Shown here one piece after another: positions 28,260-51,799 of a stretch of DNA of 62,915 nucleotides. Where the stretch lies: contig JAMPAC010000013.1 in assembly GCA_023667395.1 (NCBI GenBank), forward strand, positions 1-62,915, given 5' to 3'. Position 1 is the first letter of the stretch. Every line of letters starts with the position of its first letter. A program made the position numbers and the translations under genes. A model generated the notes under the pieces. The model saw nothing but the letters and a program-made list of their open reading frames with translations. It had not been told where the DNA came from and did no database searches. This stretch comes from Blautia sp. GTDB taxonomy: Bacteria > Bacillota > Clostridia > Lachnospirales > Lachnospiraceae.

Positions 28260-28360
28260 GAAATTTGCGGCTGCGGTTTATGCAGACGGAAATTCTTTCC
28301 CCGCCAAGGGTGTTGAAGTGAAGAGAGCGGAACAAGTTCCTGTAAACAGGAACTGGAATA
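28260..28360 (+). ncRNA. conserved 101-nt structured element, copy A (upstream of Zn-peptidase)
   Basis: This segment aligns without gaps to 51699-51799. It folds as a long first hairpin around CTGC...GCAG, a small CGCC-AAG-GGTG hairpin and a terminal TTCCTG/CAGGAA hairpin that ends 14 bases before the start codon. The stretches TTCCCCGCCAAGGG and TGAAGTGAAGAGA are invariant between copies. Differences fall mostly in pairing positions and keep the pairs. It lies between fmt and the peptidase gene, ending where AGGAGG begins. I recognise no Rfam class; a cis-regulatory leader or a dispersed repeat are both possible. Confidence 0.6.
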
Positions 28361-28374
28361 GGAGGTTATGATAT

Positions 28375-29091
28375 ATGGGACATTACGGGTATTACGGATA
28401 TTATTGGGATCCCACTTATATGCTGGTGATCATCGGCATGGTACTCTGCCTGGGGGCCAGCGCCCTGGTCAACAGCACCATGAATAAGTACAGCAGGGTC
28501 CGCAACATGAACGGAATGACGGGTGCGGAGGCGGCGAGACGCATTCTGAACAACGAAGGATTATATAATGTACAGATAGAGTGTTTAGCGTCCAGCCAGG
28601 GGGATCACTACGATCCCCGCACAAACACTGTGAGACTGTCGCAGCAGAATTTTAACGGAGCCTCCGTCACGGCGGTGGGCGTGGCGGCCCACGAGTGCGG
28701 GCACGCCATCCAGCACGCCAGGGGGTACGCGCCCCTGAACATCAGAAGCGCCATGGTTCCGGTGGTGAATATTGCGGGAAACCTGGGGATGCCCCTTATC
28801 CTGATCGGCGTATTTTTAAGCTGGAATCAGGTGCTGATCCAGATCGGTATCTGGGCGTTTGCGCTGGCAGTGCTGTTTCAGCTGGTGACGCTGCCGGTGG
28901 AATTCAACGCCTCCACCCGTGCGGTGGGCAAGATCGAGCAGTACGGGCTTCTGACCGCCCAGGAGAACACTGGCTGTAAGAAAGTCCTGACGGCTGCGGC
29001 GCTGACCTATGTGGCGTCTGCGGCATCCTCCATCCTGCAGCTGTTAAGGCTGGTCATGCTGTTTGGCGGCGGCCGCAGGAGAGACGATTAA
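28375..29091 (+). CDS. YugP-family membrane zinc metallopeptidase
   Basis: This 238-aa membrane protein has the zincin motif HECGH in VAAHECGHAIQHARG (the metal His pair and catalytic Glu) and matches the neutral Zn-peptidase family typified by YugP. An N-terminal helix (YMLVIIGMVLCLGASAL) and two or three central and C-terminal helices (VNIAGNLGMPLILIGVFL, IWAFALAVLFQL) anchor it. The Tyr-rich N-terminus is a common family feature. Substrates are unknown; relatives may process membrane proteins. AGGAGG precedes ATG 28375, and the rsmB start overlaps its stop (TAATG). Confidence 0.9.
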   Translation: MGHYGYYGYYWDPTYMLVIIGMVLCLGASALVNSTMNKYSRVRNMNGMTGAEAARRILNNEGLYNVQIECLASSQGDHYDPRTNTVRLSQQNFNGASVTAVGVAAHECGHAIQHARGYAPLNIRSAMVPVVNIAGNLGMPLILIGVFLSWNQVLIQIGIWAFALAVLFQLVTLPVEFNASTRAVGKIEQYGLLTAQENTGCKKVLTAAALTYVASAASSILQLLRLVMLFGGGRRRDD

Positions 29092-30494
29092 TGGCGGACA
29101 ATATCAGGGAAATCGTTCTGGATACGCTGCTGGAACTGGAAAAAGGCGGGGAATTTTCCCACCGGCTGATCCGTGCGGTACTGGACAAATATGATTATCT
29201 TGACAGCAGGGATAAATCCTTTATCAAGCGGCTGGCGGAGGGAACTATTGAGAGGCAGATCGAACTGGACTATGACCTGGATCATATCTCCAGCCTGCCG
29301 GTCAGGAAGATGAAGCCCCTGATCCGCTGCCTCCTCCGCATGAGCGCCTATCAGATGCTGTATATGGACACAGTGCCGGACAGCGCGGTGTGCAACGAGG
29401 CGGTGAAGCTGGCAGGAAAAAGGGGATTTCGCAGCCTGCAGGGATTTGTCAACGGTGTGCTCAGGAATCTGTCCAGGCAAAAGGGATCGATTCCCCTGCC
29501 CGATGCGCGGAAAGAACCTGAGAAATATCTTTCCGTGAAATATTCCATGCCGGTCTGGCTGGTGGAACTCTGGCTTTCCGAATATGGGCGGGAAACGGTG
29601 GAAAAGATGCTGGCCGGGCTCCTGCGGGTTCATCCGGTGTCCATTCGTTTTTCCTCCAAATTGTCAGAACGGGAGCGGCAAGACCGGGTGGCACAGCTGA
29701 CGCAGGCGGGAGTGAAAGTAACGCGGAGTCCTTACCTGCCCTGTGTTTATTCCATGGAGCACGGAGAGAATGTGGGTATGCTTCCCGGCTTCGCGGAGGG
29801 CGTTTTCACGGTTCAGGATGTCAGTTCCGCGCTGGCGGTGGAAGCGGCCCAGATTCAGGATACGGATTTTGTCATGGATCTCTGCGCGGCGCCGGGGGGA
29901 AAGAGCATCCTGGCTGCGGAAAAGGCAGACAAGGTGCTTGCCAGGGATGTGTCCATTGACAAAACAGATGTTATTGAAGAAAATATCCGGCGTATGGGCG
30001 TGAAAAACATAGAGGTACAGGTCTTTGACGCCACGGAGTTTGACGGCGGATACGAGGAGAAAGCGGATGTGGTGCTCATGGATGTGCCCTGTTCCGGCCT
30101 GGGCGTCATGGGCAGGAAGCGGGATATCAAGTACCGCGTGACACCGGAGGGACTGGAGAGCCTGGCCAAACTGCAGAGACATATCGTGGACAGCAGCTGG
30201 CGATACGTGAAGCCGGGCGGGACGCTGATTTACAGCACCTGCACCATTCATTCCGAAGAAAATGAGGCCATGGTACGATATATTTCCGAAAATCTTCCTT
30301 TTGAACCGGTTTCCCTGGAAAACGTGCTGCCTTCAGCGCTTTGGAAGCAGAAGACGGAACTGGAAGCCGGGATATGGCAGGAAGTACGGGAACAGCTGAC
30401 AGAGCAGCAGCAGGCATCCTGCATCCAGCTTCTGCCGGGATACATGGAATGCGACGGCTTTTTCTTTGCCAGATTCCGCCGCAAAACGGAATGA
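29091..30494 (+). CDS. rsmB: 16S rRNA m5C967 methyltransferase RsmB
   Basis: The 467-aa protein has an N-terminal NusB-like RNA-binding domain (about 1-140, LRMSAYQMLYMDTVPDSAV). The C-terminal SAM-dependent methyltransferase shows CAAPGGKSILAAEKA, the catalytic PCSGLGVMGRKRD and YSTCTIHSEENE, where two cysteines (TC and PC) carry out C5 methylation. TAATG overlap with the peptidase stop indicates translational coupling. A dispersed R1 element follows the stop, before rlmN. Confidence 0.95.
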   Translation: MADNIREIVLDTLLELEKGGEFSHRLIRAVLDKYDYLDSRDKSFIKRLAEGTIERQIELDYDLDHISSLPVRKMKPLIRCLLRMSAYQMLYMDTVPDSAVCNEAVKLAGKRGFRSLQGFVNGVLRNLSRQKGSIPLPDARKEPEKYLSVKYSMPVWLVELWLSEYGRETVEKMLAGLLRVHPVSIRFSSKLSERERQDRVAQLTQAGVKVTRSPYLPCVYSMEHGENVGMLPGFAEGVFTVQDVSSALAVEAAQIQDTDFVMDLCAAPGGKSILAAEKADKVLARDVSIDKTDVIEENIRRMGVKNIEVQVFDATEFDGGYEEKADVVLMDVPCSGLGVMGRKRDIKYRVTPEGLESLAKLQRHIVDSSWRYVKPGGTLIYSTCTIHSEENEAMVRYISENLPFEPVSLENVLPSALWKQKTELEAGIWQEVREQLTEQQQASCIQLLPGYMECDGFFFARFRRKTE

Positions 30495-30605
30495 AGATTT
30501 TCTAAGCCATTCCGGGAAGAATCCAAAGAGGGGGCGTAGCCCACCTTTTTGTGTGGGCATTCTTCCAGACTTGCACCAATTGTTTGTGCCGGGCGAATCG
30601 GCATC
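30492..30605 (+). repeat. dispersed hairpin element, family R1, copy b
   Basis: This spacer starts with AAGATTTTCTAAG, as in copy a, then forms GGAAGAATCC...GGGCATTCTTCC with a GGGGGCG/CCCACC inner stem. Bases 30555-30591 are identical over 37 nt to 10770-10806. It ends in a TGCCG...CGGCA hairpin. The apical parts differ between copies while the stems persist. Confidence 0.75.
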
Positions 30606-30614
30606 TCAGGAATC

Positions 30615-31706
30615 ATGAAAGGAACGGATGAAGATACAGTGACAGCAAAAAAAGACATCAAATCGATGACCTTGGCGGAACTGCAGGAGGACCTGACAGC
30701 CAGGGGCGAGAAAGCGTTCCGGGCGAAACAGATGTATGAATGGATGCATGTGAAGCTGGCGGAAAGTTTTGACGGGATGACGAATCTCTCAAAGGTATTG
30801 CGGGAAAACTGTAAGTTGTGGTATACTTATACGTCGCTTGAGGTCGTGCAGGTCCAGGAATCCCGGATCGACGGTACGAAGAAATTCCTTTTCGGGCTCT
30901 CCGACGGGAATGTGGTGGAGAGCGTCTGGATGAAATATAAGCATGGGAACAGCGTGTGCATCTCCTCCCAGGTGGGGTGCCGCATGGGATGCCGGTTCTG
31001 CGCCTCCGCCCTGGACGGATGGGAGCGGAATCTTCTTCCCTCCGAGATGCTGGACCAGGTTTACGCCATCACAAGGCTGACAGGCGAGCGGGTGTCCAAC
31101 GTGGTGGTCATGGGAACGGGGGAACCCCTGGACAATTACGATAACCTGCTGCGTTTTATCCGTCTGCTGACCGACGAAAACGGCCTGAACATCAGCCAGC
31201 GGAATGTGACGGTGTCCACCTGCGGCATGGTGCCGGAGATGAGGCGGCTGGCGGAGGAACATCTGCAGATCACCCTGGCGCTGTCGCTCCATGCAGTTAC
31301 GGACGGGAAACGCAGGCAGCTGATGCCGATAGCGGAACGCTATTCCATAAAGGAATTGATGAAAGCATGCAGGTATTATTTTGAACAGACCGGCAGGCGC
31401 ATTACTTTGGAATACAGCCTGGTGGGCGGCGTCAACGACACGGAAGAGGACGCGGAGCGGCTTGCGGCGCTGGCGAAACCGTTGAACTGCCATATCAACC
31501 TGATCCCGGTGAACCCCGTAAAGGAGCGGGATTATGTGCAGTCTGAGGCTGCCAGGGTGCGCGCTTTTCAAAATAAGCTTGAAAAAAACAGAATTAATGG
31601 TACTATTAGAAGGGAAATGGGCAGGGATATCGATGGCGCCTGCGGACAGCTGCGGCGCAGGCATATCGGGTCAATGACAGATTTGGAGGGAAAGGAACGT
31701 GCTTAA
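30615..31706 (+). CDS. rlmN: 23S rRNA (adenine-2503 C2) / tRNA methyltransferase RlmN
   Basis: The 363-aa radical-SAM enzyme methylates C2 of A2503 in 23S rRNA and of A37 in some tRNAs. The [4Fe-4S] ligands are in SQVGCRMGCRFCAS (Cys-x3-Cys-x2-Cys). GTGEPLDNYDNLLRFI, SLHAVTDGKRRQLMP and the C-terminal GRDIDGACGQLRR, which holds the catalytic Cys, are also visible. ATG 30615 lies after CAGGAATC; GTG 30639 is an alternative. The long extension from 30549 runs through the repeat and is rejected. Its end overlaps the phosphatase start by 8 bases. Confidence 0.94.
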   Translation: MKGTDEDTVTAKKDIKSMTLAELQEDLTARGEKAFRAKQMYEWMHVKLAESFDGMTNLSKVLRENCKLWYTYTSLEVVQVQESRIDGTKKFLFGLSDGNVVESVWMKYKHGNSVCISSQVGCRMGCRFCASALDGWERNLLPSEMLDQVYAITRLTGERVSNVVVMGTGEPLDNYDNLLRFIRLLTDENGLNISQRNVTVSTCGMVPEMRRLAEEHLQITLALSLHAVTDGKRRQLMPIAERYSIKELMKACRYYFEQTGRRITLEYSLVGGVNDTEEDAERLAALAKPLNCHINLIPVNPVKERDYVQSEAARVRAFQNKLEKNRINGTIRREMGRDIDGACGQLRRRHIGSMTDLEGKERA

Positions 31707-32433
31707 GACGTTTTCCATAACCAATATTGGTAAAAAGAGAAAATTGAACCAGGACTTTATTTATACTTCCGAACAGCCCGTGGGCAGGCTGCCCAATGTC
31801 TTCATTGTGGCTGACGGCATGGGAGGACATAAGGCAGGAGATTATGCCTCCAAGGTCACGGTGGAGACCATAGTGGCGGAGATCCTGAAGTCGGAGGAAA
31901 CGGAGACCGTTTCTATCCTGGAACATGCCATCCGGGCCGCCAATACGCTGATACGCAGGCGCGCGGAGGAATCCCCCGATCTGGAGGGGATGGGTACCAC
32001 CGTGGTGGCGGCGACCTGCGACGGCGATCTCCTGCAGGTGGCCAATGTGGGGGACAGCAGGCTTTATATTGTAAATCATAAAGAGATCCGGCAGATCACC
32101 AGGGATCATTCGCTGGTGGAAGAGATGGTGCGTATGGGCGGGATTGCCAGGGAGGAAGCCCGCAATCATCCCGATAAGAATATCATCACCCGGGCGGTGG
32201 GTGCGGATGATACCGTAAGGCCGGATTTTTTTGCGGTAAAACTTGACCACGGCGATATTGTTTTGATGTGCACGGACGGGCTGACCAATATGCTGGAGGA
32301 CGAGGAGATCCGCATGATCCTGGAGGAGTCCAGGGATATGGTGGAGAAAGCGGAAGAACTGGTAAAGGCGGCCAATGAAAAAGGCGGCAGGGACAATATC
32401 AGCGTAATATTGATAGACCCGTTATCTGCATAA
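31699..32433 (+). CDS. prpC: PP2C-type Ser/Thr protein phosphatase (Stp/PrpC)
   Basis: A 244-aa metal-dependent phosphatase that reverses phosphorylation by the PASTA kinase encoded next. All PPM signatures are visible: VADGMGGHKAGDYAS (metal Asp), GMGTTVVAATC, VGDSRLYIV, TRDHSLVEEMV and CTDGLTNML, with the final metal Asp in GGRDNISVILID. GTG 31699 has GGAGGGAAAGGA and overlaps the rlmN stop. The order rlmN-prpC-prkC-rsgA is conserved across Bacillota. Confidence 0.95.
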   Translation: MLKTFSITNIGKKRKLNQDFIYTSEQPVGRLPNVFIVADGMGGHKAGDYASKVTVETIVAEILKSEETETVSILEHAIRAANTLIRRRAEESPDLEGMGTTVVAATCDGDLLQVANVGDSRLYIVNHKEIRQITRDHSLVEEMVRMGGIAREEARNHPDKNIITRAVGADDTVRPDFFAVKLDHGDIVLMCTDGLTNMLEDEEIRMILEESRDMVEKAEELVKAANEKGGRDNISVILIDPLSA

Positions 32434-32478
32434 TGGTAATTATGTCAGGATACGTTTTATATAGAATGGAGAACATGT

Positions 32479-34590
32479 ATGATCAAAATTGGAATGATGA
32501 TAGGCGATCGGTATGAGATACTGGAAAAGATCGGAACCGGCGGTATGTCAGACGTATATAAAGCAAAAGACCATAAGCTGAATCGTTTTGTGGCTGTTAA
32601 GGTTCTGAAACAGGAATTCAGCGAGAACGCCAACTTTGTGTCCAAATTCCGCATTGAGGCGCAGGCGGCTGCAGGGCTGATGCATCCTAATATCGTCAAT
32701 GTCTATGATGTGGGCGAGGAAAATAATATTTATTACATTGTCATGGAACTGGTGGAAGGGATCACCCTGAAAAAATATATTGAAAAGAAGGCAAGGCTCT
32801 CCTATAAGGAAGCGGTGAGCATTGCCATTCAGGTGAGCATGGGCATAGAAGCCGCCCATAACAACCATATCATCCACAGGGATATCAAGCCCCAGAATAT
32901 CATCATATCCAGGGACGGCAAGGTGAAGGTGACGGATTTCGGCATAGCCAAGGCGGCTACCAGCAATACCATCACTTCCAATGTCATGGGATCGGTACAT
33001 TATACATCGCCGGAGCAGGCCAGGGGCGGCTACAGTGATGAGAAGAGCGATATTTACTCCCTGGGCATCACCATGTTCGAGATGCTTACCGGGCGGGTGC
33101 CCTTTAACGGGGAGACCACGGTGGCTATAGCCATCAAACATATCCAGGAGGAAATGCCCTCCCCGGCGGAATTTGTGCCGGAGATTCCCGGCAGCGTGGA
33201 GGGCATTGTCCTGAAATGCTGTCAGAAATCGCCGGATCGCCGTTATCAGAATGTACAGGAACTGCTTGCCGACCTGAAGCAGTCCCTGCTCAATCCGGAT
33301 GAGGATTTTGTGACCCAGAACGATCCTGATATGGACGGAGGGACCCGTATGATCTCCGACAATGATATGGTACAGATTAAGCGGAGAACCATATATCAGG
33401 AGCCTTCGGAGGACAGTATGCGGCTTCTGTCGGATACGGAGGCAATGTATGAGGGGGATGAACTGGAGGAAGAGGATGAGGAAGAGTATGATTATAATCC
33501 CCGGGTGGAGAGGGTAACCACGGTGCTGGCTATCCTGGCGGGTATTGTGATCTGTATTATTATCATTGTCCTGGCGGTCAGGGTTTTTGGCGGCGAAGGT
33601 GACGATAAGGATCCCAGCAGCCCCATTATCACCGACGAGCCATCCTCGTCGGAAGATTCTTCCATAGAATATGTGCCCATGCCTGACGTTAAGGGCATGA
33701 ATGTGGAGGATGCCAGGGATACCTTGGAAAATCTGGGGATCCAACTGGAAATAGGGTATGAGGAGTCAGATACCATTGACAAGGATGTGGTAATCAGCGC
33801 CAATGTGGAAGCCGGGGAGAGTGTGGTGCCGGGAAGCACGGTAAAACTGACCGTGAGCGCAGGAACTACCGGACTGGTGGAGGTGCCCGGAGTGGTGGAC
33901 AGCACCTATGAGGAAGGCGAGAACGGTCTCACCGCGCTTGGGTTTGCGGTGACGAAGATGGAGGCGTATTCCGATACGGTGGAAAAGGGCATGATCGTGT
34001 CCCAGTCCCCGCTGGCGGGGACAAAAGCGCCCCAGGGCAGCAATATTACAGTAACTGTCAGTCTTGGCAAGGAGGAGGTTAAACTCAATGTGCCGAATCT
34101 GATCGGAAAGTCGGAGCAGGATGGGACGATCATGGCGATAGAGGCCGGGCTGGAGATCAGCGACGTCTCCTATGTATTCAGTTCGGAGTATCCGGAGGGG
34201 CAGATCTGTTATCAGAGTTATTCCCACGGTTCCTATGTGGATCCGGGAACCACTCTGGAAATCAGGGTAAGCAAGGGGCCGGAGCCCCATACCTATAAAT
34301 ATGAAACAAGCATTGCTGCGCCTACCAGGGAAGAAGCGCCTGATTATGATCCGGGAACCGCTGTGGTGGTGACGCTGATCGGGGATAATGAGCAGGTTCT
34401 GTTGGAGGAGACCACCAACAGTTTTCCCCTGGCGACCAGGATTTATGGTATCAAATGTTCAGGAGGAACGATAACGCTGGTCTATACCGTGAAAGGAGAT
34501 CCTACCACCGATCCCGAAACAGGCACGACGATCCCCGGGGATGAGCAGGAGAAAGTAGTGCACAGGAGAGTGGAATTTACGGTGGAATAG
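32479..34590 (+). CDS. prkC: PASTA-domain Ser/Thr protein kinase (Stk1/PrkC)
   Basis: This 703-aa membrane kinase has the kinase domain at about 10-275 (GTGGMSDVYKAKD, VAVKVLK, HRD at 133-135 in IIHRDIKPQNI, DFGIAK). The juxtamembrane segment is acidic (about 300-345) and one transmembrane helix follows (about 348-368). Three extracellular PASTA repeats (about 385-590) bind muropeptides or lipid II. A C-terminal Thr/Pro-rich stretch of about 110 residues follows and is not a PASTA repeat. It monitors cell-wall state and germination signals; PrpC is encoded immediately upstream. Confidence 0.95.
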   Translation: MIKIGMMIGDRYEILEKIGTGGMSDVYKAKDHKLNRFVAVKVLKQEFSENANFVSKFRIEAQAAAGLMHPNIVNVYDVGEENNIYYIVMELVEGITLKKYIEKKARLSYKEAVSIAIQVSMGIEAAHNNHIIHRDIKPQNIIISRDGKVKVTDFGIAKAATSNTITSNVMGSVHYTSPEQARGGYSDEKSDIYSLGITMFEMLTGRVPFNGETTVAIAIKHIQEEMPSPAEFVPEIPGSVEGIVLKCCQKSPDRRYQNVQELLADLKQSLLNPDEDFVTQNDPDMDGGTRMISDNDMVQIKRRTIYQEPSEDSMRLLSDTEAMYEGDELEEEDEEEYDYNPRVERVTTVLAILAGIVICIIIIVLAVRVFGGEGDDKDPSSPIITDEPSSSEDSSIEYVPMPDVKGMNVEDARDTLENLGIQLEIGYEESDTIDKDVVISANVEAGESVVPGSTVKLTVSAGTTGLVEVPGVVDSTYEEGENGLTALGFAVTKMEAYSDTVEKGMIVSQSPLAGTKAPQGSNITVTVSLGKEEVKLNVPNLIGKSEQDGTIMAIEAGLEISDVSYVFSSEYPEGQICYQSYSHGSYVDPGTTLEIRVSKGPEPHTYKYETSIAAPTREEAPDYDPGTAVVVTLIGDNEQVLLEETTNSFPLATRIYGIKCSGGTITLVYTVKGDPTTDPETGTTIPGDEQEKVVHRRVEFTVE

Positions 34591-34593
34591 CAG

Positions 34594-35487
34594 ATGCGTG
34601 GGAAAATCATCCGTGGGATAGCAGGCTTTTACTATGTCCATGTTTTTGAAGAAAATGCCGGGGATGCGGGAGTCTACGAATGTAAGGCAAAGGGCGTCTT
34701 CCGCAAAGATAACCGGAAACCGCTGGTGGGCGATGATGTGGAAATGGATATACTGGACGGGGAGCAGTACCTTGGAAATATCAGGGAACTGCTCCCCAGA
34801 CACAGCGAACTGATCCGTCCCGCGGTGGCAAACATCGATCAGGCGCTGGTGATCTTTGCCATTGTCAGCCCCAGACCCAATTTTAACCTGCTGGATCGTT
34901 TCCTGATCATGATGCAGCAGCAGGGGATTCCCTGTATCATCTGTTTTAACAAGCAGGATCTGGACAAGGAGGGGGACGGACGGCGGTATCAGGATATTTA
35001 CGAATCCTGCGGCTTCAGGACCATTTCCGTCAGCGCCAGCGAGCAGAAAGGCATCGGTGAGTTAAAAGAACTGCTGCGGGGGAAGACCACCACCGTGGCG
35101 GGTCCCAGCGGCGTGGGGAAGTCCTCCATCGTCAACTGCCTGCAGTCGGGCGTTATTATGGAGACAGGGCAGATCAGCAGGAAGATCGAGAGGGGGAAAC
35201 ATACCACCAGGCATACCGAACTGATCGCCGCTGGTGCGGATACTTATATACTGGATACCCCCGGCTTCAGTGCCCTGGGGCTGTTTGACCTGGAGAAAGA
35301 GCAGCTGGGCGGTTTTTACCCTGAATTTGCGGAATATGGACAGTACTGTCGCTTCAGGGGATGCGCCCATATCAACGAACCGGAATGCGGCGTCAAGGAC
35401 GCGGTGGCGGAGGGCAGGATCAGCAGGATGCGGTATGAAAATTACCGCCTGTTGTATGAGGAGTTAAAAAACAGGAAGAAATTTTAA
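34594..35487 (+). CDS. rsgA: ribosome small-subunit-dependent GTPase RsgA
   Basis: The 297-aa circularly permuted GTPase assists late 30S maturation. An N-terminal OB domain (GIAGFYYVHVFEENAG) is followed by the permuted G-motifs NKQD (G4), then GPSGVGKSSIVN (G1), TTRH (G2) and DTPGF (G3). A C-terminal zinc knuckle includes CRFRGCAHINEPECGV. It starts 3 bp after the kinase stop, as in the standard operon. The usual downstream rpe and thiN genes are absent; an aminotransferase follows instead. Confidence 0.95.
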   Translation: MRGKIIRGIAGFYYVHVFEENAGDAGVYECKAKGVFRKDNRKPLVGDDVEMDILDGEQYLGNIRELLPRHSELIRPAVANIDQALVIFAIVSPRPNFNLLDRFLIMMQQQGIPCIICFNKQDLDKEGDGRRYQDIYESCGFRTISVSASEQKGIGELKELLRGKTTTVAGPSGVGKSSIVNCLQSGVIMETGQISRKIERGKHTTRHTELIAAGADTYILDTPGFSALGLFDLEKEQLGGFYPEFAEYGQYCRFRGCAHINEPECGVKDAVAEGRISRMRYENYRLLYEELKNRKKF

Positions 35488-35545
35488 ACCGGAAACTAAT
35501 GCGGGATAAAATATAAAATATAACGGGAAGAAGGAAAGAGGTATT

Positions 35546-36829: not shown

Positions 36830-36851
36830 TCCCCATGAAACGGAGAACGCC

Positions 36852-42150: not shown

Positions 42151-42156
42151 GACGAA

Positions 42157-42298
42157 CGTCCATCATGAGCGAAAGCGAAGCTGTAGCGAATGAGGGCCGC
42201 ACGGAGTGCGGGTTTTCACATGTGCGGCGTCCATCATGAGCGAAAGAGAAGCTGTAGCGAATGAGGGTCGCACAGGGTGCGGGTTTTCACATGTGCGG
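42157..42298 (+). repeat. 71-bp tandem duplication
   Basis: Two 71-bp units (42157-42227 and 42228-42298) start CGTCCATCATGAGCGAAAG and end CACATGTGCGG, differing at only a few positions. Each contains a CCGCAC...GTGCGG hairpin. Part of a third copy (GGGTTTTCACGCGGACG) follows. The spacer from 42086 to 42348 contains no gene. Confidence 0.92.
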
Positions 42299-42348
42299 GT
42301 TTTCACGCGGACGAACGTCCGGGCATTTGAAATAGAAAAGGAGCATAC

Positions 42349-43820: not shown

Positions 43821-43905
43821 CCCCAATTTTCCTGGCCGAGTTGACGAACCGCTTCCCCGATCACTTCCCTAACCTGAACGAACTGGAACCAAAATTTTCC
43901 GTCCG

Positions 43906-44001
43906 TACGGTTGCAATCCACTTCCAAATAAGCAAATAGTGTATATGTAAACACAGATTATGAGAATGTGTGAGCCAATTGGATGCATCCAACCGCACAT
44001 G
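43906..44001 (+). repeat. dispersed element family R2, copy C (degenerate)
   Basis: The left end, TACGGTTGCAATCC, and right end, GGATGCATCCAACCGCACAT, are inverted and match the termini of copy B. CACTTCCAAAT-AGCAAA also matches copy B's reverse complement. The interior differs, so this is an older or partial copy. It lies 85 bp after the 199-aa gene. Confidence 0.6.
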
Positions 44002-44122
44002 CAGCAATTTTACCATTTTGCGCAAGATTTCACTGCCATAAATGCTTGAAAGAAATCATAAAATAACGCACATTATCATACTTTCCCGCCCTTCCTACCC
44101 ACAGCCCACAGGATACAGGCGC

Positions 44123-44268
44123 CGGGGTGGCAGGGTTATTTTCTGCGGACGTGAGCGAGATGTGGAGAGGAGACTCAGGCAAGGCGAGCCGGCTGGCGAG
44201 CATTGCCACGTATTGAGGCTCCTCGCAACGTCCATCGAGCCGCCGCAGAAAATAACCCTGCCACCCCG
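44123..44268 (+). repeat. 146-bp element with perfect 26-bp inverted repeats
   Basis: Bases 44123-44148 (CGGGGTGGCAGGG..., ending TTTTCTGCGG) are exactly complementary to 44243-44268. The interior continues to pair (GAGGAG-CTCA with TGAG-CTCCTC; GGCA with TGCC), so the whole segment can fold into one long hairpin. No coding content is plausible. This 776-bp gene-free spacer (43821-44596) otherwise contains R2 copy C, an AT-rich tract at 44295-44340, a terminator and the mraZ promoter. Confidence 0.9.
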
Positions 44269-44390
44269 ATGCCGTCCCCCTGCCCCTCCCCCCCTTAACA
44301 AAATTTTAAAAATTTCGCAAAAAAATTTTAAAAATATATATGGAAACCAACGCCTCCACCCACCCCCATATCTTGTGGTTTTTCCACCCC

Positions 44391-44425
44391 AAAGCGTTCC
44401 GCAGCCTCCTCGCAGAACGCTTTTT
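44391..44425 (+). terminator. terminator hairpin upstream of the mraZ promoter
   Basis: AAAGCGTTC (44391-44399) and GAACGCTTT (44415-44423) form a 9-bp stem with TTTTT. It isolates the dcw operon from upstream transcription. The A-run on the other side could make it work in both directions. Confidence 0.7.
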
Positions 44426-44450
44426 GCATGCCCCGCTCCAAAAATAAGGG

Positions 44451-44528
44451 TTGTAAAAACCCAAATAATAGTATAAAATCAATCATAAAGTGGGATGGAG
44501 ATGGCATTTAACCCCATAAAGTGGGATG
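44451..44528 (+). promoter_or_regulatory. mraZ promoter with MraZ-type operator repeats
   Basis: TTGTAA (44451-44456), 17 bp and TAAAAT (44474-44479) form the dcw promoter. Identical AAAGTGGGATG boxes at 44487-44497 and 44518-44528 lie at and after the start of transcription, 31 bp apart, about three helical turns. MraZ is known to bind AAAGTG(G/T) or TGGG direct repeats in its own promoter. A weak third box (GAGATGGCAT) lies between them. Confidence 0.7.
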
Positions 44529-44596
44529 AAAGACCAAAATCGAACAACCAAATGCCTCCTCCATGACAGACCCGCTTGCGACTGGTGGTGATTGCG

Positions 44597-45028
44597 ATGT
44601 TCATGGGCAGATACAATCATACGATCGATCCGAAAGGCAGGTTGAGCATTCCTTCAAAATACCGTGAGATATTGGGAGACGAATTCGTGGTTTCCAAGGG
44701 AATGGACGGCTGTCTGTTTGTGTACGCGAATGATGATTGGAAAGTCTTTGAAGAAAAGCTGGTATCACTGCCGTTGATCAACCAGGAGGCAAGACAGTTT
44801 GCCAGGTTCTTCCTGTCAGGCGCCCAGTATGTCACCGTGGACAAGCAGGGGCGTATCCTGATGCCCCAGGATCTGAGGGATTTCGCAGGACTGGAAAAAG
44901 ATGTGGTACTGGCTGGAATGGGCGGGCGAATCGAAATCTGGAGCCTGGAGAAATGGAATGACAACAGTGAGCAGGTGGATATCAATAAGATATCCGAGGG
45001 CATGATCAGCCTGGGACTGACAATCTGA
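44597..45028 (+). CDS. mraZ: transcriptional regulator MraZ
   Basis: The 143-aa protein has two SpoVT/AbrB-like half-sites that assemble as a DNA-binding ring, repressing the dcw operon. The duplicated motif is visible as YNHTIDPKGRLSIPSKYRE in the first half and YVTVDKQGRILMPQDLR in the second. ATG 44597 follows GGTGGTGA; ATG 44603 is an alternative, and the earlier TTG is rejected. Operator-like AAAGTGG repeats lie upstream. It is the first gene of the division cluster. Confidence 0.95.
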   Translation: MFMGRYNHTIDPKGRLSIPSKYREILGDEFVVSKGMDGCLFVYANDDWKVFEEKLVSLPLINQEARQFARFFLSGAQYVTVDKQGRILMPQDLRDFAGLEKDVVLAGMGGRIEIWSLEKWNDNSEQVDINKISEGMISLGLTI

Positions 45029-45111
45029 GAGACAGTTCAGGGAAAAGTGCAGCGCCGTTGAGGCCGGTTTTGAGCCATCCCTGACTGACAGGACAAAAAA
45101 GAGGAATCCCT

Positions 45112-46041
45112 ATGGAATTCAGTCATTACTCCGTGCTCCTTGCGGAAACCATGGAACAACTGCATGTAAAGCCGGAAGGCATCTATGTGGATGGCACGCT
45201 GGGAGGAGGCGGACATGCCTGTGAGGTATGCAGGCAGCTTACCACCGGACACTTATACGGAATTGACCAGGATGACGCCGCCGTGGAGGCGGCGGGAAAA
45301 AGGCTGGAACCCCATGGGGAAAAAGTTACCATTTTGAGAAATAACTACTGTAATGCAAAAGCTGCTCTTGCAGAGCGGGGAGTTACAAAGGTGGATGGGA
45401 TCGTCCTTGACCTTGGGGTATCCTCCTACCAGCTGGACGAATCGGAGAGGGGATTTTCCTACCGCTTCGACGCCCCGCTGGACATGCGGATGGACCGCAG
45501 GCAGGGGATGACGGCGAAAGATATCGTCAACGGCTATTCCGAGAGCGATCTGTTCCGCATCATCAGGGATTACGGCGAAGACCGGTTTGCCAGGAACATT
45601 GCGAAACACATCGTGGCAGCCAGGGCGGACAGGCCTGTTGAGACTACCTTTGAACTGAACGAGATCATTAAGGCGGCCATACCCGCCAAAATGAGAAAGG
45701 ACGGACATCCTTCCAAACAGACCTTTCAGGCCATCAGGATCGAGTGTAACAGGGAACTGGAAGTGTTGCGGGACTCGCTGGACGATCTGATCGGAATGCT
45801 GAACCCGGGGGGAAGGCTCTGTATCATCACCTTTCATTCCTTGGAAGACAGGATCGTTAAAACTACTTTTAAGAAAAATGAAAATCCCTGCACCTGCCCG
45901 CCGGAATTCCCGGTATGCGTATGCGGGAAAGTACCGAGGGGAAGAGTGGTAACAAAAAAACCGATTTTACCGGGAGAGAAAGAACTGGCGGAAAATAACC
46001 GCTCCAAAAGTGCAAAGCTTCGAGTATTTGAGGCGATATAA
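45112..46041 (+). CDS. rsmH: 16S rRNA m4C1402 methyltransferase RsmH (MraW)
   Basis: The 309-aa SAM enzyme has the N-terminal [13 protein letters not shown], the SAM-binding [15 protein letters not shown] and DFAL-type catalytic segment [18 protein letters not shown], then the [12 protein letters not shown] signature. Length is standard. AAGAGGAATCCCT precedes ATG 45112. It follows mraZ in the canonical order, 83 bp later. Confidence 0.95.
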
Positions 46042-46045
46042 AAAT

Positions 46046-46609
46046 ATGCCGGAGACTGTGAATGATATGGTCCGGGAGCAACTAAGCAGAAAGCAGGAAA
46101 GCAGCATGGGTCAGACAGGAAACCGCAGAAGAAGTTCATACGGACAGAGGACGAACGTGCCCGCCAAGGGAAACCGCAGCGGATATGTATATGGAAATAC
46201 TGTGCGCAAAACAGAGATTCAGCGCCAGCTTCAGGAAGTACCAAGGAAACCGGTACAGAATGAGGTGCGCAAAAACCGCGACAAGGCCCATCACATGAGC
46301 ATGGGATATGTGCTGTTTTTGTCTGCAGCGCTGGTGGCTGCAGGCCTGATCCTGGTGAATTATGTACAGCTGCAGGCGGAACTGACTAACCTGACGAAAC
46401 TGAACGCCACCAGGGTCAGCGAACTGAGCAGCCTGCGTCTTTCCAACGATGAGGCCTATAACCGTGTCCTGAGCAGCATCGACCTGGAGGAAGTAAAGCG
46501 GATTGCCATCGGGGAGCTGGGGATGGTGTATGCCGAGGAGGGTCAGATTTATAATTATACCAGCGAAGGCGACGACTACATGCGCAAGGTGATGGAAAGT
46601 TCCAATTAG
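46046..46609 (+). CDS. ftsL: FtsL-like cell division protein
   Basis: This 187-aa bitopic protein has a basic, disordered cytoplasmic part (about 1-80), one transmembrane helix (about 84-103, YVLFLSAALVAAGLILV) and an extracellular coiled coil with Leu heptads (VQLQAELTNLTKLNATRV). Sequence conservation in FtsL is low, so the call rests on topology, size and position between rsmH and the PBPs. The cytoplasmic part is longer than usual. ATG 46046 is 4 bp after the rsmH stop. Confidence 0.8.
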   Translation: MPETVNDMVREQLSRKQESSMGQTGNRRRSSYGQRTNVPAKGNRSGYVYGNTVRKTEIQRQLQEVPRKPVQNEVRKNRDKAHHMSMGYVLFLSAALVAAGLILVNYVQLQAELTNLTKLNATRVSELSSLRLSNDEAYNRVLSSIDLEEVKRIAIGELGMVYAEEGQIYNYTSEGDDYMRKVMESSN

Positions 46610-46618
46610 AGGTGCGGA

Positions 46619-48886
46619 GTGAAAAAAAAGGACAAGACAAAATTTTCAATTAAAATGCAAAAGAAGCTGGTGGTACTGTTTGTTCTCGTACTGCTGGCTT
46701 TTGCCTGTTTAAGTGCGCGGCTGGTGCTGATAGCCAAGGAGAATGGAACCCAGTATCAGAAGCAGATCCTGTCCCAGCAGAGATATGACTCCACCACGAT
46801 CCCCTACAGGCGGGGTGACATCGTGGATTCCAGGGGCACCATCCTTGCCACCAGCGAGAAAGTCTACAACCTGGTCATCGACGCGAAAGTGATGAACACG
46901 GAACTGGGCGGCAAGAAACCTTATCTGGAACCCACGCTGGCGGCGCTGGGACAGTATTTTGACCTGAATATGCAGGAGATCAGGTCCTACGTGACCACCA
47001 ATACGAGTTCTTCCTGGTATGTGCCCTTAAGGCGGCTGACTTATGAGCAGATCAGCGGTTTTGTGGAGGCAAGGATCGTAAGGGAGGGCGACAGCGACGA
47101 AGTCAAGACGAACAAGGGAAATATCCAGGGCGTCTGGTTCGAGGAGGAGTACAAAAGGGAGTATCCCTACGCTTCCCTGGCGGCAGACATGATCGGGTTT
47201 ACCACCACCGACGGCCAGGGCAAATATGGGTTGGAGGAATTCTATAACGCCACGCTGAGCGGCGTGAACGGCAGGGAGTACGGCTATCTCAATGACGACT
47301 TGAACCTGGAGCGCACGGTTCAGTCGCCTTTGGACGGGAATACCATACATCTCACCGTGGACGCCAACCTGCAGATGATCGTGGAAAAATATCTGCAGAA
47401 GTTCAACGATGAGCACAAGGATGAATTTGTACAGGGCGCCAACGGCGCGCAGAATATCGGCTGCATCATGATGCGGGTGAACACGGGGGAGATCCTTGCC
47501 ATGGCAAGCTATCCCACCTACGACCTGAACGATACCAGGAATACCTCCAACCTGATCGGCTCCATGGAGGTGGAACAGATTACTAATGCCAACGGCTATT
47601 ATGAGATCCACAAGACGGGAAATTATATCAGCGAGGCCAGGCTGGCGGAGATGGACGAGAACCAGATCTACCTGAACCTGAACAATCTCTGGAAAAATTT
47701 CTGCATCACGGGCACCTACGAGCCCGGTTCCACGGCAAAGCCCTTTACCGTGGCGGCTGCCCTGGAGAGCGGCGTGATCTCCCCCACCACCACGTTCGAG
47801 TGTACCGGAAAGATGGATATAGGCGGTTACGAGATCAGATGCCACAACAAATATGACGGCACGCTGACGCTGGAGGAAGCGGTGGCAAAGTCCTGCAACG
47901 TATCCATGATGAAGATCGCCCAGGTGCTGGGCAGGGAAGCGTTCACGAAATACCAGCAGATGTTTAATTTTGGATTAAAGACCAATATCGACCTCGCGGG
48001 GGAGGCCCGCACCGCAAGCCTGATTTACACGGCGGATCAGATGGGTCCCACGGATCTGGCTACCAATTCTTTTGGACAGAATTTTAACGCCACCATGATC
48101 CAGATGATCACCGGATTCTGCGCCCTGATCAACGGCGGGTATTATTATGAGCCCCATGTGGTGGACAAGATCACCAATTCCAGCGGCGCCACGGTGGCCA
48201 ACATCGAGCCCAGGGTGCTGAAGCAGGTGATCTCCGATTCCACTTCTGAACTGATCAGGCAGTACTGCGTGGCAGTGGTGGACTATGGTACGGGTCATAC
48301 CGCCCGGCCTGCAGGATATATGATCGGCGGAAAGACGGGAACCGCGGAGACCATCGATGAGAATACCCATAAGCGTTCCGAAACGGAACATGTGGTTTCC
48401 TTTATCGGATTTGCTCCTGCGGATGATCCCCAGGTGGCCATCTATGTGGTGGTGGACAGACCCAATGTGTCCCATCAGGGCGACGCCAAGTATGCCACGG
48501 GCATTGTCCGCAATATCCTGACGGAAGCGCTGCCCTATCTGAACATTTTCATGACGGAGGAACTGTCCGAGACAGAGATCACGGAACTGGAAGCGCTGCA
48601 CCTGGAGATCACCAACCAGTATACGCAGAGGCCGGAGGATGACGCCCTGGAGGGGACGGATGCAGAGGAAAATCAGGAGGATGAGACCCGGTTCCTGAAT
48701 CCCGACGGCAGTCGGCCGGCGTGGATGGATTTTCCCATTGATCCCCTGACGGGATACAGGGTGGATCCTGCCACAGGAGATAAGTACGATGCCAGGGCAG
48801 GGTTCCTGGTGGAGGGTGGAAGTACACCTGTTATTGATCCCAATATGCCGGTGAACGGCAACCTGATTAATCCTCCTCAGGAATAG
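46619..48886 (+). CDS. class B penicillin-binding protein (FtsI/SpoVD type), first of a tandem pair
   Basis: The 755-aa septal transpeptidase has one N-terminal membrane helix (VVLFVLVLLAFACLSARL) and a dimerisation/pedestal domain. The catalytic motifs are STAK (in PGSTAKPF), SCN (KSCNVSMM) and KTG (GGKTGTAE). The last 90 residues form an acidic tail with DPLTGYRVDPATGDKYD, not a PASTA domain. GTG 46619 follows GAGGTGCGGA. It lies between FtsL-like and a second PBP, so it is either FtsI or the sporulation-specific SpoVD; sequence alone does not decide. Confidence 0.93.
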   Translation: MKKKDKTKFSIKMQKKLVVLFVLVLLAFACLSARLVLIAKENGTQYQKQILSQQRYDSTTIPYRRGDIVDSRGTILATSEKVYNLVIDAKVMNTELGGKKPYLEPTLAALGQYFDLNMQEIRSYVTTNTSSSWYVPLRRLTYEQISGFVEARIVREGDSDEVKTNKGNIQGVWFEEEYKREYPYASLAADMIGFTTTDGQGKYGLEEFYNATLSGVNGREYGYLNDDLNLERTVQSPLDGNTIHLTVDANLQMIVEKYLQKFNDEHKDEFVQGANGAQNIGCIMMRVNTGEILAMASYPTYDLNDTRNTSNLIGSMEVEQITNANGYYEIHKTGNYISEARLAEMDENQIYLNLNNLWKNFCITGTYEPGSTAKPFTVAAALESGVISPTTTFECTGKMDIGGYEIRCHNKYDGTLTLEEAVAKSCNVSMMKIAQVLGREAFTKYQQMFNFGLKTNIDLAGEARTASLIYTADQMGPTDLATNSFGQNFNATMIQMITGFCALINGGYYYEPHVVDKITNSSGATVANIEPRVLKQVISDSTSELIRQYCVAVVDYGTGHTARPAGYMIGGKTGTAETIDENTHKRSETEHVVSFIGFAPADDPQVAIYVVVDRPNVSHQGDAKYATGIVRNILTEALPYLNIFMTEELSETEITELEALHLEITNQYTQRPEDDALEGTDAEENQEDETRFLNPDGSRPAWMDFPIDPLTGYRVDPATGDKYDARAGFLVEGGSTPVIDPNMPVNGNLINPPQE

Positions 48887-48958
48887 ATCGGCCTGTCAAA
48901 AGTCATAACCTGATAAAAAGCGGAATAGAGTATAGTGATCCTTTTTATGAGGTTTGGC

Positions 48959-50695
48959 ATGTTATCTGATAACAATAAAATATTTCACAGGAAGAAAGTG
49001 CTGGTGGTCTTTCTGGGATGCGCTGCGCTGCTGCTGCTTCTGTTCGGCAGGCTGGTCTATCTGATGGTCTGGCGGGCGGAACACTATTCTCGGCTGGCCA
49101 CGGACCTGCATGAAAGGGAGAGGAGCATCAAGGCCGCCAGGGGACGGATACTGGACTGCAACGGCACGGTGCTGGCGGACAACAAGACGGTCTGCACCAT
49201 CTCCGTCATACATAATCAGATCGAAGACCCGGAGGAAATCATCAGGATCCTGTGCCAGGAACTGGATCTGTCCGAGGAATACGTCAGGCAGCGGGTGGAG
49301 AAATATTCCTCCATGGAGCGCATCAAAAGCAATGTGGATAAATCCATCGGCGACCGCATCAGGGAATACGACCTGGCGGGCGTCAAGGTGGATGAGGATT
49401 ACAAGCGTTATTATCCTTATGAGGAACTGGCCAGCAAGGTTCTGGGCTTTACCGGGGGAGACAACCAGGGAATCATCGGTCTGGAAGTGATCTATGAAGA
49501 TTACCTCCAGGGAGAGCCGGGAACCATCCTTACGGTGACGGATGCCAGGGGCATTGAGGTGGAAGCCGCAGGAGAGAGGCGGATAGAGCCCATAAACGGC
49601 AATGACCTGTGCATCAGCATGGATCTGAACATCCAGACCTACGCCACCCAGCTGGCTGCCCAGGCCTGTGCCGCGAAAGAGGCGGACAGCGTGTCCATCA
49701 TTGTGATGAACCCGCAGAATGGCGAGATCCTTGCCATGGTGAATGTACCGGAATTCAATTTAAACGACCCTTACGCATTGCCGGAGGGCACGCCGGAGAC
49801 TGTCAGCGCGGAGGAGAAGCAGGATCTCTTGAACGGCATTTGGCGGAACGGCTGTATCAACGACACTTATGAGCCCGGTTCCACCTTTAAGATCGTCACT
49901 GCGGCGGCGGGGCTGGAGGCAGGCGCGGTGACTACCGAGAGTACGTTCAACTGTCCCGGATTTATCGTGGTGGACGACAGAAAGATCCGCTGCCATAAGG
50001 TGGCGGGGCATGGAACCCAGGATTTTACCCATGCCATGATGAATTCCTGCAATCCGGCGTTGATCACCCTGGGACTGAGGCTGGGGCTGGATTCCTATTA
50101 TGAATACTTTGAAAGATTCGGTTTAAAGACAAAGACGGGCATCGACCTCCCCGGGGAGGCGGGCACGATTATGCACCAGAAAGAGAATATGGGAAATGTG
50201 GAACTGGCCACGGTGGCTTTCGGGCAGTCCTTTCAGATCACCCCCATACAGCTGCTCACCACGGCATCCTCCATCATAAACGGCGGGAACCGCATCACGC
50301 CCCATTTTGGGGTAAAGGCTGTGGATGCCGATGGAAACGTGGTGGAGACCTTTGAATACCCGGTAAAACAGGGTATTGTGTCGGAGCAGACCAGCCAGAC
50401 CATGCGGGAGATTTTGGAGATGGTGGTGGCGGAGGGATCCGGGAAAAATGGGAAAGTGGAAGGCTTTCGGATCGGCGGCAAGACCGCCACAAGCCAGACG
50501 CTTCCCAGGGGGAGCGGGCGCTATATCGCCTCCTTTGTGGCCTTTGCGCCGGCGGATGACCCGCAGGTCATAGCCATAGCCATAGTCAACAATCCCCAGG
50601 GAACTTATTATGGGGGACAGGTGGCGGCGCCCATCCTGCGCCAGTTATTTGAAAATATTCTTCCTTATATGGGAATCATGGAGTATAATCAATGA
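48959..50695 (+). CDS. class B penicillin-binding protein, second of the pair, with KTA in place of KTG
   Basis: The 578-aa protein has an N-terminal helix (VLVVFLGCAALLLLLFG), a pedestal domain and a transpeptidase with STFK (PGSTFKIV) and SCN (NSCNPALI). The third motif reads GGKTATSQT, Lys-Thr-Ala, where almost all PBPs have Lys-Thr-Gly. No PASTA tail is present. GAGG lies 6 bases before ATG 48959. Its stop overlaps mraY by ATGA. One of the two tandem PBPs presumably serves vegetative division and the other spore cortex; which is which is unclear. Confidence 0.92.
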   Translation: MLSDNNKIFHRKKVLVVFLGCAALLLLLFGRLVYLMVWRAEHYSRLATDLHERERSIKAARGRILDCNGTVLADNKTVCTISVIHNQIEDPEEIIRILCQELDLSEEYVRQRVEKYSSMERIKSNVDKSIGDRIREYDLAGVKVDEDYKRYYPYEELASKVLGFTGGDNQGIIGLEVIYEDYLQGEPGTILTVTDARGIEVEAAGERRIEPINGNDLCISMDLNIQTYATQLAAQACAAKEADSVSIIVMNPQNGEILAMVNVPEFNLNDPYALPEGTPETVSAEEKQDLLNGIWRNGCINDTYEPGSTFKIVTAAAGLEAGAVTTESTFNCPGFIVVDDRKIRCHKVAGHGTQDFTHAMMNSCNPALITLGLRLGLDSYYEYFERFGLKTKTGIDLPGEAGTIMHQKENMGNVELATVAFGQSFQITPIQLLTTASSIINGGNRITPHFGVKAVDADGNVVETFEYPVKQGIVSEQTSQTMREILEMVVAEGSGKNGKVEGFRIGGKTATSQTLPRGSGRYIASFVAFAPADDPQVIAIAIVNNPQGTYYGGQVAAPILRQLFENILPYMGIMEYNQ

Positions 50696-51654
50696 GGAAT
50701 GTGAGTGTTTTGGCGGCGGTGATATCCTTTGCCTTAAGCGCGGTGTTTGGTCCGGTGCTGATCCCTTTCTTAAGAACCCTGAAATGCGGGCAGACAGTGA
50801 GGGATGACGGCCCGGCCACCCATCTGGGGAAAACGGGGACGCCCACCATGGGCGGGATCCTGATCCTGGCCAGCGTGGTGATCACCACCCTGCTGTTCAT
50901 AAAAGAGTATCCCCGCACGGCGCCCATCCTGTTTCTCACGGTGGGCTTCGGACTGATCGGTTTTCTGGATGATTACATAAAAGTGGTGTGTATGCGGTCC
51001 CTGGGACTGCGGGCGTGGCAGAAGCTGCTGGGGCAGCTGGCGGTGACGGCGGGTTTCGCCTGGTTCCTGCTGCGTTACACGGATGTGAGCCTTGCCATGA
51101 AGATTCCTTTCCTGCCGGGGCAGTATCTGGACTTCGGGGCATGGAACCTGCCCATCCTGTTCTTTATCGTGCTGGGAACGGCAAACGGCACCAACTTCAC
51201 CGACGGCCTGGACGGCCTGGCGGGAAGCGTGACGGTGATGGTGGCGGTCTTTTTCACCGTGGTGGCGGTGGGAAGCAGGAGCGGTATCGAGCCGGTGACC
51301 TGCGCCGTGGCAGGCGCCCTGCTGGGCTTCCTGCTGTTCAATGCGCATCCGGCGGCTGTATTCATGGGCGACACCGGTTCCCTGGCCCTGGGCGGTTTTG
51401 TGGCGGCCTGCGCGTATATGATGCAGATGCCTTTGTATATAGCCATTGTGGGCATCGTCTACCTGGCGGAAGTGGTCTCGGTGATCCTCCAGGTGGGATA
51501 TTTCAAGCTAAGCGGCGGAAAAAGGCTTTTCCGCATGGCTCCCCTGCATCACCACTTTGAACTGGGGGGCTGGCCGGAAACAAAGATCACGACGCTGTTC
51601 ACCATCGCCACGGCGGTGATGTGCCTGGTGGGGCTGCTGGGACTTGGTAACTAA
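50692..51654 (+). CDS. mraY: phospho-MurNAc-pentapeptide transferase MraY
   Basis: The 320-aa membrane enzyme makes lipid I from UDP-MurNAc-pentapeptide and undecaprenyl phosphate. Ten helices are predicted. Family signatures visible are GTPTMGGILILASVVI, FLDDYIKV (catalytic Asp pair), GTANGTNFTDGLDGLAG, FMGDTGSLALGG and PLHHHFELGGWPE. The start overlaps the PBP stop by ATGA. A conserved RNA-like element follows it before murD. Confidence 0.97.
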   Translation: MRNVSVLAAVISFALSAVFGPVLIPFLRTLKCGQTVRDDGPATHLGKTGTPTMGGILILASVVITTLLFIKEYPRTAPILFLTVGFGLIGFLDDYIKVVCMRSLGLRAWQKLLGQLAVTAGFAWFLLRYTDVSLAMKIPFLPGQYLDFGAWNLPILFFIVLGTANGTNFTDGLDGLAGSVTVMVAVFFTVVAVGSRSGIEPVTCAVAGALLGFLLFNAHPAAVFMGDTGSLALGGFVAACAYMMQMPLYIAIVGIVYLAEVVSVILQVGYFKLSGGKRLFRMAPLHHHFELGGWPETKITTLFTIATAVMCLVGLLGLGN

Positions 51655-51698
51655 TAACAGTCTCGGAACGGAAGCGCAATGTGCCAAGGCACATGAAA

Positions 51699-51799
51699 GG
51701 AATTTTCAGCTGCGGTTTGGGCAGATGAAAATTTCTTCCCCGCCAAGGGCGCTGAAGTGAAGAGACCGGAATAAGTTCCTGCTTGCAGGAACTGGAATA
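51699..51799 (+). ncRNA. conserved 101-nt structured element, copy B (upstream of murD)
   Basis: Gap-free match to 28260-28360. The first stem is nearly perfect here: GGAATTTTCA-CTGC pairs with GCAG-TGAAAATTTC around a G-A mismatch, for about 14 pairs. A CGCC-AAG-GGCG hairpin and a TTCCTG-CTTG-CAGGAA hairpin follow. It ends 18 bases before the murD ATG. An extra palindrome (ATGTGCC/GGCACAT) lies just upstream at 51679-51694. It may control murD separately from mraY. Confidence 0.6.

Follow-up and report, generated by a model that had tools for sequence, protein, structure and literature searches.

The 62,915-nucleotide stretch of Blautia sp. DNA surveyed in this study (the window: contig JAMPAC010000013.1 of assembly GCA_023667395.1) holds two copies of a short RNA-like element, copy A ahead of a putative zinc metallopeptidase gene and copy B ahead of murD. 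The two are probably members of a recently mobile, structured small interspersed repeat, so far found in one genus, which is placed beside ribosome-binding sites and folds in a way that leaves these sites open. Units of the family stand directly before start codons, share a fold with strong covariation, reach a high copy number and occupy different sites in close relatives. The family is a real and unusual one, new as a variant of the small interspersed repeats.

Copy number and placement beside start codons

The segments 28260-28360 (copy A) and 51699-51799 (copy B) can be aligned without a gap, as the initial annotation had claimed, and agree at 84 of 101 positions. The motifs it quoted are present; the next best ungapped match to copy A in the window, on either strand, reaches 46 of 101. 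No third copy was detected in the window with a covariance model (R1, built from 12 short copies) and a few typed patterns. The genome to which the window belongs (G000; 4.43 Mb, 206 contigs, 94% complete) gave 84 matches to copy B as a DNA query and 135 R1 matches at E <=1, 128 of them below 0.001, among the best 150 candidates scored. After removal of one antisense self-match (C188:839), at least 134 sense-strand places remain in 100 arrays, of which 74 are single, 20 double, four triple and two quadruple. A close relative, G062 (JAMPFQ), in which 10 of 20 pattern arrays share their downstream gene with G000 at 92-100% protein identity, has 117 places in 83 arrays (125 matches before eight antisense ones were removed). 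These copy numbers are lower bounds, because they come from the best 150 candidates in G000 and, elsewhere, from the best 67 per genome under stricter filters. At one locus (L255; G000 C147, ~2318-2580) a unit and gene start are followed by a run of Ns and then by the unit end and gene start again, a duplication that is probably an assembly gap across the repeat.

With the strict filters, R1 matched eight of 37 genomes of the genus, its own included, and none of 24 genomes from other families of the order. A gapped exact pattern, which detects close sequence types only, recovered 76 stretches from a species-genome collection, under the titles Lachnospiraceae, uncultured bacterium, one uncultured Clostridiaceae and bacterium D16-50. 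Nine of 38 genomes contain the tail CGGAACTGGAATARGAG when one mismatch is allowed, namely the eight carriers and, as one match, G015.

Placement was assessed in 99 of the 100 G000 arrays (array C9 being omitted). An ATG with a Shine-Dalgarno-like motif and at least 80 codons, lying 8-70 nt past the core, was found at 89 of the 99 arrays, at none of the 99 when read outward on the opposite strand, and at 228 of 4000 random positions (5.7%) in the same loci. A looser rule is satisfied by 97 arrays, the two others running into a contig end and into an ATG followed by Ns. The looser rule also holds for 80 of the 83 arrays of G062, where the exceptions are a further unit, a contig end and a TTG start, the latter presumably that of prfB. 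In other public records, where 100 pattern matches form 78 arrays (20 of the loci being from JAMPFQ), it is satisfied by 71 of the 78, one of which (L155) represents a chance frame inside the following unit; the seven exceptions comprise an ATG at the locus end (L135 and L197), a TTG (L145), a locus end or further unit (L126, L159 and L164) and one case with no start (L147). The units mostly occupy the gap from a stop codon to the next start codon, in sense orientation. At one locus (L086) two units stand back to back, C140:132418 on the minus strand and C140:132980 on the plus strand, one for each of two divergent genes.

The dispersed repeat that the initial annotation had kept as its alternative is, in substance, what these counts describe: 134 copies, tandem arrays, and sites that differ in a close relative. 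The scatter over random positions and convergent gaps, with no covariation, that the same annotation would have held against a structured leader was not encountered. Since the spread of the repeat is real, its placement strict and its covariation strong, the readings as a cis-acting RNA and as a dispersed repeat are both partly true.

Fold, covariation and downstream genes

From its 5' end the unit consists of ACAGTCTC..GAGAC (P1), a GGA/GAA 3x3 internal loop, a 2-bp AC/GT helix, a second GGA/GAA loop, P2 and P4, forming an RNA rod of about 99 nt. P4 is a long hairpin with stems of about 20 bp and a conserved G.A mismatch. Two further hairpins are optional, P3 (ATGTGCC/GGCACAT) occurring in long-type copies and P5, a 3' palindrome, in many copies. 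A CTGGAAT tail, an AGGAGG-like sequence and the start codon follow in this order, and the tail consensus across the family is CTGGAATAGGAGG. Between tandem units lie TGGAAT and a short run of bases that are mostly A, and the periods seen are ~105-150 bp. Judged by eye, the unit ends have only about GTCTC in common and some copies are truncated with intact tails; others are internally deleted. At two places (G062 C43 near 74779, before alr, and G000 L241) the upstream gene ends within the tail ACGGAACTGGAATAG, which supplies its final codons and its stop, the frame being read by eye. At another (L259; G000 C162:57217) a different sequence precedes the tail, with GCAGAGTCAGAAACG occurring twice around palindromes, and this is perhaps a second repeat family.

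Pairing was examined in three MAFFT alignments with structures taken from single folds (A3, A4 and A7) and in one model-fitted alignment (A6). Paired cells amount to 97.0% in A3 (12 copies), 97.1% in A4 (13 long copies) and 94.3% in A7 (45 copies from other genomes), and both sides have changed in 11 of 33, 10 of 37 and 19 of 33 pairs, respectively. In each of the three alignments all 500 shuffles fell short of the observed count of doubly changed pairs, and when the structures were slid along them only 28-55% of cells could pair. The search input A5 comprised 61 of the 84 loci L116-L199, JAMPFQ loci and a few duplicates being omitted, and A7 uses 45 of its 93 matches. For A6, with 116 distinct copies from the genome itself, 93.5% of cells are paired and a double change is seen in 29 of 33 pairs, with 381 double-change cells compared with 88 in shuffles and 34-63 in slid structures. 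The number of further pair types in A7 was reached by nine of 500 shuffles.

The variants are readily seen in individual helices: P1 occurs as GTCTC/GAGAC, GCCTC/GAGGC, GCTTC/GAAGC and GTTTC/GAAAC, and the 2-bp helix as AC/GT, AT/AT and GT/AC. The structured RNA that the initial annotation proposed next to the ribosome-binding site, with changes that preserve pairing, is supported, covariation being found in A3, A4, A6 and A7. Its small AAG-loop hairpin (CGCC/GGCG) is not the pairing that the family conserves; GGGCGC instead pairs and covaries with an upstream strand throughout the family, as in GTCCCC with GGGGAC.

Selection on the sense RNA was assessed by comparing wobble pairs with their antisense equivalents, A-C mismatches, with pairs that are commonly G-U excluded. 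The ratios were 41 to 2 in A7, 120 to 65 in A6, 2 to 2 in A3 and 5 to 5 in A4; three antisense rows were excluded from the A6 wobble count and included in its pair count. This excess lends weak support to selection on the sense strand, because the rows are related and A3 and A4 show none. The balanced counts in A3 and A4 would suit palindromes maintained at the DNA level, their arms matched by template switching and without any role for RNA, as would the P4 arms at two orthologous sites (C55:22608 and C188:814), which by eye are almost wholly different between the genomes and still complementary. Such a correction of arms should, however, erase the GGA/GAA loops and the G.A mismatch of P4, both of which are conserved, and it leaves the sense placement before start codons unexplained; we regard it as highly improbable.

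Upstream of 87 of the 99 arrays the reading frame that scores best runs on the same strand, and in 67 of these it ends within 140 nt; this, together with the length of the P4 stems, is what would be expected of an element for messenger RNA processing or stability, with P4 cut by RNase III or blocking an exonuclease and so separating the cistrons of an operon. Processing of other repeats is known. Copies that lack P4 are nevertheless still followed by a start codon (C22:54873, C144:9596 and C126:13534), and the best upstream frame lies on the opposite strand in five arrays and is absent in seven, so that a processing role appears rather improbable.

The genes behind the units are diverse. Gene scans with NCBIfam and Pfam cover 43 of the 99 arrays; NCBIfam was run on 40 of 92 downstream proteins, with 27 of the 40 matching a family at E <=1e-15, and Pfam on six downstream genes (three of them outside the NCBIfam set) and two upstream genes. 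Above cut-off these are obgE, trkA, murD, bile salt hydrolase, rmlA, rmlC, ybaB, purA, proS, radA, carB, greA, pyrD, cmk, rnfB, rnfD, glyS, yggS, rsmD, alanine racemase (alr), a ketoacyl synthase and truB; pcrA and clpB, both cut by locus ends, and spoIIIAG fall below the curated cut-off. No common pathway, as would be expected for a riboswitch, was recognized among the downstream genes of the arrays scanned, and an envelope-specific leader was rejected because these genes are unrelated. The earlier proposal is supported as regards a structured element beside the ribosome-binding site, and is not supported as regards control of two envelope-linked genes, with at least 134 copies in the genome and unrelated genes behind the arrays scanned. 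Likewise, the covariance-model search it had suggested returned many covarying copies before start codons, but these were not confined to cell-envelope genes. Just upstream of the tandem array preceding proS lies a T-box leader (L020:1648-1874, minus strand; 105.3 bits), giving two kinds of leader on one transcript.

A cis-regulatory RNA, in which a protein or ligand binds the rod at its tandem GGA/GAA loops and controls translation of ~100 genes, the cassette having spread by wiring a single regulon, would account for the strong covariation with conserved non-Watson-Crick loops, for a Shine-Dalgarno sequence that is always close, and for the sense wobble excess in A7 and A6. Against it stand the lack of a shared pathway, the differing sites in close relatives, the even wobble counts in A3 and A4, and a relative (L122) in which, by eye, continuous pairs replace the outer GGA/GAA loop. 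CsrA is a GGA binder. It was matched in 33 of 38 genomes, carriers and non-carriers alike, and was not found in the carrier G020 (34 copies, 80% complete); it was rejected as the binder of the unit, its presence being unrelated to carriage, even though G000 has six matches, the highest number among the 38 genomes. Besides the canonical one, five of these are divergent CsrA-domain frames (C130:17806, 22018 and 30489; C40:5003; C143:206). Covariation and a leader position do not by themselves prove a riboswitch, and we consider regulation in cis unlikely.

In a folding computation on 69 single-copy leaders, the predicted mean unpaired probability of the Shine-Dalgarno sequence was 0.628 for the native leader, 0.519 with the core shuffled and 0.645 with the core removed, and the native leader was predicted to be more open than the shuffled one in 55 of the 69. 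An openness close to that without the core, and above that of shuffled cores, suggests that the fold is a closed package which does not touch the ribosome-binding site. Such a predicted package fits an insert selected to be harmless, and may also be compatible with a regulator acting in trans.

Site differences between relatives and candidate machinery

Both flanks of 82 of the 99 G000 arrays were recovered in 2.31 Mb of G062. At 50 of these syntenic sites G062 has a model match, with the same copy number at 27, fewer copies at eight and more at 15, and at the other 32 it has none; only this split is used here, as the flag for scars is a crude pattern that fires on coding sequence too. Many of the 32 sites are taken up by scars or shortened forms (ACAGTTTGGGAACTGGAATAGGAGG among them), and a few look clean by eye (before rnfD, C99:48882, C22:54873 and C140:113848). 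Conversely, G062 carries units where the gap in G000 is plain (C43:34762 and C43:9773).

Before rnfD, G000 has a full unit flanked by two copies of the 10-bp repeat AATAGGAGAA, and G062, G005, G013, G016, G035 and G036 have a short gap with no unit; in the longer gaps of G020 and G026 no unit was seen by eye. Insertion in G000 is the simplest reading. Before murD, a full unit was seen only in G000 among 30 loci (G000 and 29 relatives, three of the starts being guessed by script); G001 has a 28-nt gap without a unit and G026 a tail remnant.

Taken together, these observations are best explained by a unit that would insert in sense beside a Shine-Dalgarno sequence and multiply there in tandem. 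Its fold would be kept because a self-contained insert keeps the Shine-Dalgarno sequence open, which in turn would allow insertion before essential genes to be tolerated, and some machinery would move it. A regulatory effect is possible, though the data can be explained without one.

Several observations weigh against this reading of a mobile repeat. What distinguishes G000 from G062 is in many places a scar, a short form or a lost unit, so gain and loss are often indistinguishable; G001 and G014 carry short remnants before rnfD, and the rnfD site may be an older insertion cleanly lost in G062. There is no general target-site duplication: a flanking repeat score of at least 8 was obtained at seven of 89 arrays (control mean 6.5), with no excess over re-paired flanks, and exact repeats of at least 10 bp flank two of the 89. 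The further pair types in A3 and A4 do not exceed those in shuffles, being reached by 444 and 463 of 500, respectively, and the predicted accessibility of the Shine-Dalgarno sequence is the outcome of a folding computation only. The strict sense placement, unlike that of BOX and RUP, could also mean function. Lastly, no mobilising enzyme was found in searches of the eight carriers, a set that leaves out G062, for Y1 transposases and reverse transcriptases: Y1 was unmatched in five (G000, G001, G019, G021 and G025), and RVT_1 was not found in G001, G020, G021 and G025 (93%, 80%, 97% and 63% complete).

The flank similarity at C123:11445 was rejected as a duplication, since in G062 a tail scar directly adjoins the 5' flank. 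Mobility through Y1 (RAYT) transposases was rejected on account of the five unmatched carriers, the 94% complete G000 among them, with three of the eight carriers matched. A reverse transcriptase was rejected as a marker of carriage, RVT_1 being matched in four of eight carriers (G000, G014, G019 and G026) as well as in 20 of the 30 remaining genomes. A fragment of a group II intron (D1-D4-3, 67.3 bits) was recognized at L013:56-152 on the plus strand.

A bacterial analogue of a SINE, with an RNA-templated unit that lands on Shine-Dalgarno sequences through pairing of its own 3' end (GGAATAGGAGG) with the antisense strand nicked there, would, if true, supply one mechanism for the sense orientation, the fixed position, the truncated copies with intact 3' ends, the tandem growth and the covariation. 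It would have to employ a reverse transcriptase that went unrecognized in four of the eight carriers, and is very unlikely.

If the mobile repeat proposed here is selfish, it shows how parasitic DNA can conceal itself ahead of essential genes through its own folding; if it is regulatory, a regulon of ~100 genes has been rewired inside one genus. With their filled and unfilled sites, the two genomes G000 and G062 make it possible to put this question to the test.

The two copies in the window and comparison with known systems

All features of the two copies lie on the plus strand. Copy B is a full long-type copy (P1-P2-P3-P4) with its core at 51657..51766 (R1 match 51657-51770, 66.3 bits). The 101 nt allotted to it in the initial annotation fall short of its true extent, which starts with ACAGTCTCGG at 51657 and runs through the TGGAAT ending at 51798. 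The fold of 51657-51818 has an energy of -56.8 kcal/mol (z -4.37), equalled by none of 200 shuffles. According to this fold and the family pairs, GTCTC (51660..51664) forms P1 with GAGAC (51762-51766). GGA-AC-GGA (51665..51672) and, in the fold, GAA-GT-GAA (51754-51761) are the 5' and 3' sides of the two GGA/GAA 3x3 internal loops around the 2-bp AC/GT helix, and AGCGC (51673..51677) forms P2, a strongly covarying helix, with GCGCT (51749-51753). The hairpin P3 (ATGTGCC/GGCACAT), restricted to long-type copies, occupies 51679..51694, and the long hairpin P4 occupies 51697..51737, with its G.A mismatch between 51709 and 51725. They are followed by the optional 3' hairpin P5 (AGTTCCTG/CAGGAACT; 51774..51793) and by the tail TGGAAT (51793-51798) with the murD Shine-Dalgarno sequence TAGGA (51804-51808), together 51793..51808. 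The segment ends 18 nt before the start of murD at 51818 (51818..53182; TIGR01087, 394.7 bits). The upstream gene, a glycosyl transferase family 4 member (50692..51654; PF00953) which we take to be mraY from its position, has its stop codon 2 nt before the element.

Copy A is an internal deletion form. Its core (28256..28332; R1 match 28236-28332, 52.6 bits) retains only P4 and, from P2 and P1, their 3' strands; by eye, a head remnant ACAGTTC (28248..28254) is fused to the P4 stem, both of the 5' strands (P1 and P2) being absent. Its fold has only a modest margin over shuffled sequences (z -1.67, with 14 of 200 scoring as well or better). The P5 hairpin and the tail CTGGAATAGGAGG with the Shine-Dalgarno sequence extend over 28335..28365, and the segment ends 14 nt before the start at 28375, so the 14-18 bases given earlier for the two copies were correct. 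The gene that follows encodes a putative neutral zinc metallopeptidase (28375..29091; PF04298, 306.3 bits). The head remnant begins 5 nt past the stop codon of the preceding gene, a formyltransferase (fmt-like; 27250..28242; PF00551 and PF02911).

No description of the unit was found among open-access titles and abstracts, most subscription papers and all supplementary files lying outside that search; the tables of PMC8040213 may hold its RNA under a number. Rfam gave nothing at gathering score in the window, and on 20 of 30 loci only the T-box and the group II intron part exceeded the cut-off, both outside the element. A known Rfam class was thus rejected for the element, in agreement with the initial annotation, which had not recognized it as a known riboswitch; an overlap of PART1_3 with a copy in L016 is below cut-off (E 8.4) and a chance match. 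Like the riboswitches and protein-binding leaders in Rfam, the unit is a conserved RNA fold adjoining a ribosome-binding site, but it differs from them in having no Rfam match above cut-off, no common pathway and sites that vary between relatives.

Among repeats, the copy number (134) and the variation between relatives (32 of 82 sites; eight of 37 genomes) are those of a small interspersed repeat, whereas the target-site duplication of a MITE was not found as a general feature of the 89 arrays examined. REP and BIME palindromes are multicopy, intergenic and clustered, and are moved by RAYT transposases. The unit resembles them as a multicopy, palindromic and clustered intergenic unit, and differs in standing 5' of genes and in the lack of a Y1 match in G000 and four other carriers, three carriers being matched. 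According to PMC3049150, the BOX, RUP and SPRITE elements of pneumococci are interspersed repeats, short and structured, which occur patchily in related species and are thought to be parasitic; BOX is modular and variable in length, and the neighbours of pneumococcal repeats show no clear functional bias. The unit is similarly short, structured, interspersed and patchy, with unbiased neighbours. BOX, RUP and SPRITE are, however, enriched between convergent genes and loosely placed in that account (PMC3049150), in contrast to the unit, which is oriented in sense and precedes a start codon by tens of bases; no such tolerant placement between convergent genes was seen in the 99 arrays (89 in sense, none opposite). 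The TAACTGA heptamers of Beggiatoaceae, as described in PMC4679880, occur patchily among genomes as tandem repeats, mostly in forward orientation and immediately ahead of the start codons of unrelated genes, and so share with the unit their tandem, forward position directly before such genes. They are 7-bp repeats that overlap the expected ribosome-binding site, mostly without a Shine-Dalgarno sequence (PMC4679880), whereas the unit is a 99-nt covarying RNA fold that ends just before one. A sense-only repeat with a covarying RNA fold, confined to that side of genes where the ribosome-binding site lies, is unlike the repeat families compared here.

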